A stretch of 32,596 nucleotides of DNA from Chloroflexota bacterium (GTDB lineage Bacteria; Chloroflexota; Anaerolineae; Promineifilales; Promineifilaceae), in contig JAGNBF010000051.1 of NCBI GenBank assembly GCA_018004935.1, positions 19,215 to 51,810 on the forward strand, read 5' to 3'. The notes under the pieces are model-generated. The model had not been told where the DNA came from. It did no database searches and saw only the letters and a list, made by a program, of their open reading frames with translations. A program made the position numbers and the translations under genes. Of this stretch, positions 13,120-16,868 are shown piece after piece (positions within the stretch are counted from its first letter, which is position 1; every line of letters begins with the position of its first letter).

Positions 13120-14082
13120 CTATCCTCCACTCCGGCTCTGTGTAGCCGTTGGCACAGGCGTCACCGTCATCTGAGCAAACTGCGTATTTTGAAACGTGAG
13201 CCGCCAGCCACCCGCCTGTCCCCCTTCACCCGTTGGGCAATCCTCAACCCGCAATCCACTCACCAGCGGGCTACCTTCCGCCAACATCACTCCATATGAC
13301 AATTCCGGCGTCATGATAAAATCCCCATACCCCACCCCCAACTCCGGCTTAAAGCCAGTAAAAAAACGGTCTGCCCCATTATCCCATGTTACCAACACCT
13401 CTACCCCCGGCAATGGTTGCAAATTCGCATCCAATACCACCACCTCAATCCGAGGAGCCGGTCGTTCCCGTTCACACACCCGCTCCTGATCCAACAATTG
13501 ATACACCGGCAATCGCGTAGGCGAAGGTGTAATTGTCGGTTGCGGCGTCCACGTAGAAGAAGGTGTGGCGGAGGGTAAAGGCGTAAAAGTGACAGTTGGT
13601 GGTAACGTGGGGGTTGCCGAAGGTTCTGGGGTGGCAGAGAGTGTGGGGGAAGGCTGAAACTCCGGTGTCACAAACAAAGCCACCGCCGGATCCCGTACCC
13701 CTAACCGATCCGCCAGCAAAGCCAGCGGCCGCACCCGAGATTCCGGCTCACCCTGACGCAAATAAACCTGAAGCAAATCAGTCACCGTCTGCGTAATATT
13801 AGGGTTCTCCAGAGCTGTCAGCCGTGTTTGTGCCCGGTTCCAATCCCCATCCAAAGCATAACTTTGGGCCACCAGGAAAATATACACTTCCTGATAATCA
13901 TCTCTTAGCCGGGAAGGCCCGGCTGACACATAAACCACCGGACTGATTAACCAGGCATAGGCTAACCCACCAGCCAGCCCCAGCAGTAAACCCATAAGCA
14001 ACAAACTGGCGACCCCCATAGCACTCAGTGAGCGTGGGCGTTGTTGTTGGCGACGTTCTTCGTACCGTTGGCGGGCAGACAT
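13120..14082 (-). CDS. Anchored extracytoplasmic protein of unknown function with TP-rich linker
   Basis: 320 residues, family not recognised. A basic cytoplasmic tail (1-20) precedes one membrane helix (~22-46). A helical module (~58-137, YIFLVAQSYALDGDWNRAQ, then LALLADRLGVRDPAVALF) resembles a single tetratricopeptide-like unit. A Ser/Thr/Pro linker (~140-193) leads to a beta-rich C-terminal domain (~203-308). That domain includes VVVLDANLQPLPGVEVLVTW and GYGDFIMTPELSYGV, which resembles a transthyretin- or carboxypeptidase-regulatory-like Ig fold. Cys203 and Cys282 could form a disulfide. The helical module is similar to the protein encoded just upstream (14114-14485), so the pair is paralogous. 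A role at the cell surface is likely; the function is unknown. Confidence 0.8.
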   Translation of the reverse strand: MSARQRYEERRQQQRPRSLSAMGVASLLLMGLLLGLAGGLAYAWLISPVVYVSAGPSRLRDDYQEVYIFLVAQSYALDGDWNRAQTRLTALENPNITQTVTDLLQVYLRQGEPESRVRPLALLADRLGVRDPAVALFVTPEFQPSPTLSATPEPSATPTLPPTVTFTPLPSATPSSTWTPQPTITPSPTRLPVYQLLDQERVCERERPAPRIEVVVLDANLQPLPGVEVLVTWDNGADRFFTGFKPELGVGYGDFIMTPELSYGVMLAEGSPLVSGLRVEDCPTGEGGQAGGWRLTFQNTQFAQMTVTPVPTATQSRSGG

Positions 14083-14113
14083 AAGGATTATTGATGGCTA
14101 AAAATGGTAATCG

Positions 14114-14485
14114 TCAATCGTCAATCAAATAGGGGGCAAGGGCGGGTGAACTCAACCCCAAATCAGTTGCCAGACGAGCTAGATGGCGCATATCTGCCTC
14201 ATTGCCCCCTTCGAGAATAGCTTCAACAGTGAAAGCCAGGTATTCCTGGAACGGGTCTGAAGCACCAATCCAGGCAGAGCGGAGTCGTTGGCTGGCGCTA
14301 GGCAAATCATGATCAGCACTGTACGCGGCCGCAATCATGACCACATAATCATAACGATACGCCTCCGCCAGAAGCGTAGGATCAGCATCAGCATACTCCG
14401 TAGGCCAGGCATACCAACCCAAAAACAACCCCAGGCCAACCCCAGCGGCCAACCCCAATAAAAGAATCAACAGACGACGAATCAT
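14114..14485 (-). CDS. Small anchored protein, paralogue of the N-terminal module of its neighbour
   Basis: 123 residues. An N-terminal hydrophobic helix (LLILLLGLAAGVGLGLFLGW) precedes an alpha-helical module, YDYVVMIAAAYSADHDL, then ASQRLRS and HLARLATDLGLSSPALAPYL. Spacing and residues parallel residues ~58-137 of the 13120-14082 product, including the Tyr/Gln-Ser-Tyr-like helix and the LAxDLGLxxPA end. It has no linker or C-terminal domain. It is the first gene of the pair, 31 nt upstream of the longer one, so they are cotranscribed. The two may form a complex through the shared module, but no function is known to me. Confidence 0.8.
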   Translation of the reverse strand: MIRRLLILLLGLAAGVGLGLFLGWYAWPTEYADADPTLLAEAYRYDYVVMIAAAYSADHDLPSASQRLRSAWIGASDPFQEYLAFTVEAILEGGNEADMRHLARLATDLGLSSPALAPYLIDD

Positions 14486-14522: not shown

Positions 14523-14583
14523 GTAAATTCATCCACCAGCCCACCGGGTCGTAAAACGACCGCACTGGCAGATGAATTTATAC
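14523..14583. repeat. Nested palindrome
   Basis: Outer arms GTAAATTCATC ... GATGAATTTATAC and an inner hairpin GGTCGTAAAACGACC. It lies 38 nt upstream of the divergent end of the 14114-14485 gene. It is unlike the other repeat families and may be a decayed element or a regulator-binding region. Confidence 0.6.
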
Positions 14584-14616
14584 TTACCCCGGTCATAAGG
14601 CGAGGGATTTTTTAAG

Positions 14617-14856
14617 GCGGGCAAAATCGGGGGCTTTGTTCATTAAATTTTTAATCGGGTAACGCCTTCATTGACCCCATCCCCCCTGCCGATTCCCGAG
14701 GGAAGGGGGGAATTGCAATGGGGCATTTTTCGGGGCGAATGCCCCGAAAAATGCCCCTTAGAAAAGTTCCCCGCCCATGGGAACGGGGTTAGGGGTGGGG
14801 GGGATTCCATTACCTGATTAATTTTTTAAACGACAATCGCCCCCGATTTTGCCCGC
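14617..14856. mobile_element. 240-bp nested inverted-repeat element
   Basis: Perfect 18-bp terminal inverted repeats (GCGGGCAAAATCGGGGGC and complement) bound a unit whose interior is again symmetric: AATTTTTAATCGGGTAA faces TTACCTGATTAATTTTTT, with hairpin copy C in the centre. The whole could fold into one long cruciform or RNA stem. It has no coding capacity. It fills half of the 521-nt gap before the tRNA gene. Confidence 0.65.
14720..14800 (+). repeat. Variable-stem hairpin element, copy C
   Basis: Perfect 17-bp arms (GGGGCATTTTTCGGGGC and complement) around the loop GAAT at 14720-14757, then the family tail AAAAGTTCCCCGCCC and GGGGTTAGGGGTGGGG. It sits at the centre of the 240-bp element. 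Confidence 0.8.
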
Positions 14857-14932
14857 CGAGTGGGTTCCCCCTTCCCGAAATCGGGAATCGTCAGGGGGAT
14901 GGGTTCATTCTGGTAGTAGGCAATCGCCCTGT
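14848..14932 (+). repeat. Direct repeat R5, copy 1
   Basis: About 85 bp starting TTTGCCCGCCGAGTGGGTTC, with a small palindrome TTCCCGAAATCGGGAA and ending TAGGCAATCGCCCTGT. It is nearly identical to 15951-16036. The two copies flank the tRNA-Leu gene and the ECF sigma gene. Confidence 0.85.
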
Positions 14933-15006: not shown

Positions 15007-15088
<82 letters not shown>

Positions 15089-15232: not shown

Positions 15233-15823
15233 ATGGACGAAACACGTCTAATCAAACTGGCTCAAGAAGGCGACCTGACCGCTTATAATCGGTTAGTTTT
15301 GTTGTACCAGGATGCAGTGTTCAACATCGTCTATCGTATTATGGGCGATGGGGCCGCGGCCGCGGACATCACCCAAGATGCCTTCGTTTCCGCCTACCAT
15401 GCCATCTCTCGCTTCAGCGAAGGAAGTTTTAAGGCCTGGCTCATCCGCATCGCTACCAACGCCTGCTACGACGAATTCCGCCGCCGCAAGCGCCGCCCCC
15501 AAACTTCCCTGGACGAAATGACCGCCGAAAACGATAGCCCTGCTTTCCTCCAAAGTGATGAGCCTGGCCCAGAACAAATACGGCAACGCCATGAACTGGT
15601 TCAAGCCATTCAGGATTGCCTCAAACGTTTACCCGAAGATCAACGCGTCGCTTTGGTGCTCTGCGATGTAGAAGAATACGATTACAACGAAATCGCGGCC
15701 ATCATCACTTCTTCTCTGGGAACTGTTAAATCTCGTATCAGTCGGGCACGGACCAAATTGCGTGATTGTTTACAGGCGTTTAGGGAACTTCTACCCACCC
15801 AATACCGTTTAGAGAATGGATAA
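15233..15823 (+). CDS. ECF-type RNA polymerase sigma factor
   Basis: 196 residues. Region 2 holds YNRLVLLYQDAVFNIVYRIM, then DITQDAFVSAY and FKAWLIRIATNACYDEFRRR. The basic RRRKRRP stretch follows the -10 recognition helix. Region 4 is at about 130-180, with LPEDQRVALVLCDVEEYDY and the helix-turn-helix EIAAIITSSLGTVKSRISRA. It matches the RpoE/SigW-like group. An anti-sigma-like membrane protein is encoded 232 nt downstream on the same strand, the usual arrangement for envelope-stress regulation, but the gap is unusually wide because R1 and R5 repeats lie in it. Confidence 0.94.
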   Translation: MDETRLIKLAQEGDLTAYNRLVLLYQDAVFNIVYRIMGDGAAAADITQDAFVSAYHAISRFSEGSFKAWLIRIATNACYDEFRRRKRRPQTSLDEMTAENDSPAFLQSDEPGPEQIRQRHELVQAIQDCLKRLPEDQRVALVLCDVEEYDYNEIAAIITSSLGTVKSRISRARTKLRDCLQAFRELLPTQYRLENG

Positions 15824-16055: not shown

Positions 16056-16868
16056 ATGTTTGATTGGTTACGCCGCCTCGGCCAAAACAATGAGGCAAAA
16101 CAACAAGAACGGCTCAATGCCTATTTGGATAATGCCCTTTCGCCCCAAGAACGACTGGCATTAGAGCAGGAACTGAGCCGTAATAGCCCACTCCAACAGG
16201 AGTTGATGGAATTACGCTGGCTACGAGCCGCCATACGCCAGTTGCCCCATGTGCCTGCGCCCCGTCAATTCACGCTGACACCAGACATGGTTTCCCAGCG
16301 AACACACCCTTACCGCACACCCCTATACCCGGCCCTCCGCCTGGCTACTACACTTACTGCCTTCTTATTGGTGGCGTTGCTTTCATTAGAGCTAATCTTG
16401 CCGGTTATGAACGCACCAGATAGTGCCTATGAATCATCGGCAAATGCGGATGTTATGTCTGATGATGCCGAAACATTGGCTTACGACGGGGGCGAAACCG
16501 CGTCTGAAGAAGCAGAGGAGCCTGTTGAACCTGCGGCCGCGCCCGCCGCAGATATGACACAAACTGAAGCGGAGACCGGCAATGTGGAGATACCTGTTCC
16601 AGCCGAGGAGGTGAGTGTGACTCTATCAGCCGCCGCAGTTACAGCCACCATTAAATCGGACGCGGCCGCGACTATCCTGGCCCCTATACCTACTCCATCA
16701 GCCACACCCTCGCTTACCCCTTCACTGACTGCCGTACCCATCACCGTATCACCCACATCCCCACCAATCAGCCCAAACCCGCTACGTTTAGGTCAAATAG
16801 GGATGGGAATCATTTTTGTTGTCTTACTCTTTGCTACCCTCAGCCAGCGCCGTCGCGCCTCTCTTTAA
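16056..16868 (+). CDS. Anti-sigma-like transmembrane protein without zinc motif
   Basis: 270 residues. The cytoplasmic N-terminus (1-72), with ERLNAYLDNALSPQERLALE, has the look of an anti-sigma domain. It lacks the His-Cys-Cys zinc-binding set of ZAS-type anti-sigma factors. The first membrane helix is ~93-117. The long middle part (~120-240) is acidic, then Ser/Thr/Pro-rich, and would lie outside. A second helix (IGMGIIFVVLLFATL) sits near the C-terminus, followed by RRRAS. So it spans the membrane twice, with both ends inside. The gene follows an ECF sigma gene. No ribosome-binding site is seen before the ATG at 16056, and a possible -10 box (TACAAT) lies 17 nt upstream, so a short-leader transcript of its own is possible. 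Confidence 0.75.
   Translation: MFDWLRRLGQNNEAKQQERLNAYLDNALSPQERLALEQELSRNSPLQQELMELRWLRAAIRQLPHVPAPRQFTLTPDMVSQRTHPYRTPLYPALRLATTLTAFLLVALLSLELILPVMNAPDSAYESSANADVMSDDAETLAYDGGETASEEAEEPVEPAAAPAADMTQTEAETGNVEIPVPAEEVSVTLSAAAVTATIKSDAAATILAPIPTPSATPSLTPSLTAVPITVSPTSPPISPNPLRLGQIGMGIIFVVLLFATLSQRRRASL

Follow-up and report, generated by a model that had tools for sequence, protein, structure and literature searches.

Two adjacent genes, here called orf1 and orf2, encode paralogous membrane-anchored proteins that have been kept side by side in Anaerolineae, and the reading we favour, at about even odds, is that they constitute an obligate two-gene unit producing a heteromeric complex of the cell envelope. 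The genes were found in a stretch of 32,596 nucleotides from a Chloroflexota genome, in the following called the window (Table 1). A preliminary description of this DNA, made from its letters, had placed both proteins outside any described family and without an assigned function, and this was borne out, as no Pfam or NCBIfam family covers orf1 or orf2. A description of the pair in the literature was likewise not found in the accessible part of one paper library.

Table 1. Position of the gene pair, its parts and its context. Positions refer to the window unless another locus is named.
Feature	Position	Strand	Basis or remark
orf1 (P0002)	14114..14485	-	123 aa; one membrane helix and a helical module
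orf1 membrane helix, residues 2-26	14408..14482	-	AF2 and hydropathy; glycine-rich (G11, G15, G19, G23)
orf1 helical module, residues 34-123	14117..14386	-	AF2 helices; homology to orf2 module
orf2 (P0001)	13120..14082	-	320 aa; membrane helix, helical module, TP linker, beta domain
orf2 membrane helix, residues 24-45	13948..14013	-	AF2 and hydropathy
orf2 helical module, residues 54-141	13660..13923	-	AF2 helices
orf2 Thr/Pro-rich (TP) linker, residues 142-193	13504..13659	-	Sequence; block mean pLDDT about 46-72
orf2 beta domain, residues 194-304	13171..13503	-	AF2 strands; predicted prealbumin-like/Cna-B-like fold
orf2 Cys203, invariant	13474..13476	-	Alignment A4, 73/73 rows
orf2 Cys282, invariant	13237..13239	-	Alignment A4, 73/73 rows
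tRNA-Leu(CAA), context, not part of the pair	15007..15088	+	Conserved upstream neighbour; strand opposite to the pair here
ECF sigma factor, context, divergent to the pair	15233..15823	+	PF04542 E 4.4e-21; syntenic in 15/80 loci
Anti-sigma-like membrane protein, context	16056..16868	+	zf-HC2 E 0.00094, under Pfam cut-off
Large membrane protein with C-terminal beta-domain relative, L178	7065-10247		
Large membrane protein with C-terminal beta-domain relative, L185	7070-10261		
Large membrane protein with C-terminal beta-domain relative, L167	1546-4383		
Large membrane protein with C-terminal beta-domain relative, L083	6645-9455		

As had been proposed from the sequence, an N-terminal membrane helix is followed by a helical module in both proteins, and the helices of the two AlphaFold2 (AF2) models follow the same pattern. 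The orf1 model (mean pLDDT 92) shows helices at residues 2-26, 41-58, 61-71, 78-91, 96-108 and 114-119 with a hydropathy peak at 5-23, and the orf2 model (mean pLDDT 83.5, pTM 0.44) at residues 24-45, 61-78, 81-89, 96-109, 114-126 and 132-138 with a peak at 19-37. The glycines of the orf1 membrane helix are widely kept, G15, G19 and G23 in at least 90% of alignment A5 (the orf1 alignment, from which L158, L178 and L180 of the 72 orf1 were left out) and G11 in at least 90% of alignment A2. C-terminal of its module, orf2 continues with a disordered, low-confidence stretch rich in TP and then with a domain of nine AF2 strands (residues 194-299), and the only cysteines of P0001 are C203 and C282, in agreement with the linker and the two-cysteine beta-rich domain that the preliminary description had assigned to one of the two proteins. 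Besides both cysteines, T242, G243, D254, Y263 and P56 of the module are invariant in all 73 rows of the orf2 alignment A4, from which L167, L169, L180, L181 and L183 of the 77 loci with a full orf2 were left out as odd fusions or breaks. The arginines ahead of the first helix suggest that both proteins are oriented N-in with the remainder outside the membrane. Charge, TP stalk and paired cysteines point to a location at the surface, where C203 and C282 likely form an extracytoplasmic disulfide.

In a single-pair BLASTP comparison, orf1 and orf2 are 31% identical across 119 aa (E 4e-10), and hhalign of the two families gave E 1.7e-35 with the membrane helix included. After removal of the membrane helices, the match remained at a probability of 99.6% and E 1.4e-23, and as this is far above the column-shuffled controls of the same comparison (n=20, probability at most 1.7%), the similarity is taken as homology. 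A similarity arising from the membrane helices alone is thereby ruled out. Paralogy of the two neighbours, for which profile-profile comparison of the modules had been named as the decisive check, is thus upheld.

The module is possibly a set of TPR-like hairpins, because its profile touches coatomer epsilon, the best PDB sequence match (E 0.0038), followed at lower rank by the TPR proteins LapB and IFT88; as in TPR alpha-solenoids, helical hairpins are seen in the AF2 model. Among the TPR models of Pfam only TPR_19 (E 0.03) and TPR_12 (E 0.1) came up, each in one of 20 members. No Foldseek match to the module was obtained at E 0.001, and VIA structure comparison of orf1 reached at best Z 4.9, to NOT1, with no fold well above the others in the list.

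For the beta domain of orf2, a transthyretin/Cna-B-like fold is predicted. VIA comparison yielded Z 7.3-8.9 over 75-90 residues at an rmsd of 2.2-3.9, with all 50 rows falling within residues 195-309 and the best, Z 8.9 over 80 residues, standing among many ties. Residues 208-303 share the predicted beta-sandwich of prealbumin-like, transthyretin-like and Cna-B domains (Z 8.9 to a B. anthracis TIE protein, 8.3 to the BcpA pilin, 8.0 to 5-hydroxyisourate hydrolase and 7.9 to transthyretin and carboxypeptidase D), a likeness at the level of fold that is borderline at Z near 8. With Foldseek, the SpaC pilus adhesin accounted for all three matches that reached E 0.001 or better. None of 20 members reached the cut-off of a Pfam family of this superfamily, the nearest being Big_1 (2/20, best E 0.077), and a PDB sequence search with the domain gave nothing under E 0.69. 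The orf2 domain differs from prealbumin-like/Cna-B domains by its two invariant cysteines. Isopeptide bonds of Cna-B domains involve Lys, Asn/Asp and Glu, and the lysine is usually located in the first core strand. Unlike this usual arrangement, the first core strand of orf2 (residues 211-217 of P0001) is without lysine; K245 and D254 are conserved.

The gene orf1 lies directly upstream of orf2 in 72 of the 77 loci with a full orf2, so that conservation of the pair in Anaerolineae, which had been suggested as a check, is supported. At these 72 junctions, the genes overlap by exactly 4 nt in 63 cases and by 1 nt in three, and are separated by gaps of 0-14 nt in the remaining six. Because the orf2 start closest to the end of orf1 was chosen, overlaps are favoured; this choice alone, however, would hardly yield precisely 4 nt at 63/72 junctions. 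The pair of the window is an exception, as its genes, both on the minus strand, are spaced by 31 nt without overlap. In three close genome pairs, dN/dS of both genes was 0.06-0.17, 0.08-0.10 and 0.23-0.30, and both genes are under purifying selection in all three. Their joint inheritance and the 4-nt overlap seen at most loci make it plausible that the products of orf1 and orf2 form one surface complex.

A species-level scan of 84,980 species, each represented by a single genome, gave at least 98 relatives, 80 of which were kept as loci L109-L188; loci L069-L088 share genomes with these and were not added to the 80. Among the matches listed, all 80 belong to Chloroflexota, with 52 labelled as Anaerolineae, one as Ardenticatenia and one as Candidatus Limnocylindria, and 26 without a class label. 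In a sample of 251 genomes from the phylum, the beta domain occurred in 20 of the 31 genomes that belong to the class of the window and in none of the 220 outside it, whereas the module profile, which also catches other paralogues, matched in 29/31 genomes within the class and in 12/220 outside. The pair with its beta domain is restricted to Chloroflexota and almost entirely to Anaerolineae among the matches listed; Longilinea arvoryzae is a cultured carrier. Within a class sample of 199 genomes, for which the genomes without a match are listed in part, the beta domain was found in 89, and since the pair is missing from many genomes of the class it is dispensable. Among 59 near and class relatives, orf2 was matched in 41 at E <1e-20 and in 58 at E 0.01, the latter including paralogues and linker-only matches.

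The preliminary description had envisaged a duplication of the genes next to each other, followed by the gain of a domain in one copy. The two genes are indeed neighbours and paralogues, but their duplication is ancient. In a tree of 93 modules (about half of the A4 and A5 rows, with only 117 usable columns), each module was labelled as orf1, orf2, third paralogue or tandem variant, and these labels required five changes, compared with a mean of 43.6 after shuffling. The orf1 and the orf2 of the window each fall into a well-supported group of six with the same partners from other genomes, by which a recent local duplication is ruled out. Among the orf2 rows of the tree, 25 orf1 rows were placed, and neither a single clade for all orf1 (p-AU 0.171) nor one for all orf2 (p-AU 0.387) was rejected. 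The proposed gain of a domain after local duplication is not supported, as modules group by position across genomes and the beta domain has been lost from two relatives. These belong to family f54, in which G321 keeps the domain (L248), while G381 and G411 (L245, L247) carry two short module genes without it, one of them with a TP stub. In this lineage the beta domain has probably been lost with retention of the two-module unit, and because both modules persist as separate genes in the two relatives, the module pair looks like the core of the system. Among the ORFs kept by selection at L246 and L249, no module match was found.

The C-terminal part of such proteins also varies elsewhere. Three module copies occur in tandem at L079, L158 and L178, and the extra copies at L079 have other C-terminal parts without a beta-domain match. 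A weaker relative of the beta domain (E 8e-8 to 6e-4) ends large, TP-linked proteins with one membrane helix in four loci, and all four genes directly adjoin orf2 (Table 1). In the protein at L185, the only one scanned, Pfam recognised four cyclic-nucleotide (cNMP)-binding stretches.

If orf1 and orf2 form a heteromeric envelope unit, each would be inserted N-in by one glycine-rich helix, and the two proteins would contact each other through their membrane helices and through the modules just outside the membrane. In orf2, the TP linker would then span the wall layer as a stalk and carry the beta domain, which, closed by the C203-C282 disulfide, may bind a polymer of the wall, a glycan or some other protein of the surface; such a binding role would suit the predicted beta-sandwich, a kind of fold used for binding. 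The module pair would be the core, with the beta domain as a head open to exchange, because the domain is missing in some lineages, tandem copies carry other heads and a relative is found on the cNMP-binding neighbour. Speaking against such a unit are the 31-nt spacing in the window, the dispensability of the pair, its varying neighbours and a tree in which the orf1 rows do not form a single clade. Adjacent small bitopic proteins that act as an envelope heteromer are known from PilN/PilO, and by analogy the pair would work like such proteins without being, by the tests made, a member of their family. The ArlF/ArlG stator likewise consists of adjacent small membrane-anchored proteins forming an envelope heteromer, according to the available portions of two papers (PMC12488501, PMC13319060). 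The likeness to both systems lies in the small neighbouring anchored proteins, the heteromer being a proposed one for orf1/orf2; no relation to the pair emerged in the family searches made, and the predicted architecture would differ. The orf1/orf2 pair also sits outside any filament locus, and inspection of the window by eye revealed no genes of a filament system. At L086, a T2SSE gene is located nearby, separated from the pair by tRNA-Leu.

Gene neighbours vary between lineages, and the context therefore names no function for the pair. It seems unlikely that the pair scaffolds or guides the ligation of wall glycopolymers together with LCP and VanW-like proteins. A gene cluster of the LCP family is represented in 16/80 loci and a VanW-like one in 14/80, mostly just downstream of the pair (one LCP checked matched PF03816 at E 2e-37, one VanW-like protein gave a partial match under the cut-off at E 2.3e-15), yet this association is confined to a single branch of the class, the LCP gene runs convergently outside the operon, and the window has no LCP gene next to the pair. 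At L077, L078 and L082, a gene for a PMT_2-type glycosyltransferase follows directly or nearly directly downstream of the pair (Pfam E 1.1e-10, for L078 only), and glycosylation of the TP linker by this neighbour is possible. At the edge of the window, positions 2-397 hold a truncated lipoprotein-like ORF with repeated PAAEPTEE units, which adjoins genes recognised by eye as sugar-transporter-like permeases.

Rather improbable is a role in envelope stress, in which the pair would be the sensor for, or the main target of, an ECF sigma/anti-sigma system. The divergent gene order in the window suggests such a role, and a divergent sigma gene, mostly with an anti-sigma gene, accompanies the pair in 15/80 loci across distant branches (the anti-sigma-like protein of the window had no NCBIfam match at E 1e-5). 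However, the linkage is not constant, and a tRNA-Leu(CAA) upstream on the pair's strand, found in 22 of the 73 loci scanned for tRNAs out of the 80, is present in all 15 loci with sigma and in seven more without it, so that the arrangement looks like old synteny. In addition, G030 and G015 (L199, L200) and G023 (L202) keep sigma, anti-sigma, tRNA-Leu and mutL without the intervening pair; a profile identified mutL at L199 only, whereas at L200 and L202 it was recognised by eye, and the sigma match of L202 comes from one search, as an overlapping ORF displaced it in another. Conversely, the best sigma match lies away from the pair in six pair-bearing genomes (G047, G065, G098, G197, G329 and G457). 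Given the three relatives that retain these neighbours without the pair, dependence on sigma and anti-sigma is unlikely, and the link is one of synteny, although this sigma may still regulate the pair.

In the window, tRNA-Leu(CAA) and the pair are on opposite strands, in contrast to the same strand in all 22 loci where it was found, and the segment has apparently been inverted here. The interval from orf1 to the tRNA contains inverted repeats rich in G+C (32 nt at 81% and 18 nt at 94%) and a short hairpin, at 14616-14907 and 14524-14580, possibly a small mobile or repeat element.

The module is not confined to the pair. Third and fourth paralogues of about 330-400 aa in Anaerolineae have a membrane helix and module as in the pair but differ in their C-terminal part and by an additional membrane helix (checked on L096); those tried received no Pfam assignment. 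The third paralogue occurs in L090-L108, in most loci once (e.g., L096, 8818-9840), with a conserved C-terminal part, and in some genomes near the gene of the diadenylate cyclase CdaA (L105). In the genome of the window itself, L089 (contig C181, 8018-9010 and 9060-10586) has a module paralogue beside an ArlJ-like gene (NCBIfam E 5e-103, score under the cut-off) in an archaellum-type locus, and the same order is repeated in G001 and G022. A role of the pair itself as accessory to a type IV filament (pilus or archaellum), which it would hold in the envelope in the manner of PilN/PilO, is improbable in spite of this neighbourhood, since the protein beside ArlJ is a separate paralogue, ArlJ is found at E 1e-30 in only 5/59 genomes compared with 41/59 for orf2 at E <1e-20, and only three of these five genomes, those with the closest ArlJ, carry the full-length paralogue, which thus occurs in 3/59. 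A broader reading, to which we give little credence, would be a modular family of envelope anchors that is the class's own, with the co-translated pair as a class-wide scaffold for exchangeable heads and a paralogue recruited beside ArlJ to anchor an archaellum that some of these bacteria would have acquired.

The envelopes of Chloroflexota are described as either monoderm or of atypical build, and the identity of their layers as unclear (PMC13319060, PMC12488501). A conserved, nearly class-restricted and undescribed pair of envelope proteins offers a concrete handle on these poorly understood envelopes, and the paralogue beside ArlJ a testable lead on how an archaellum is held in a bacterial envelope.
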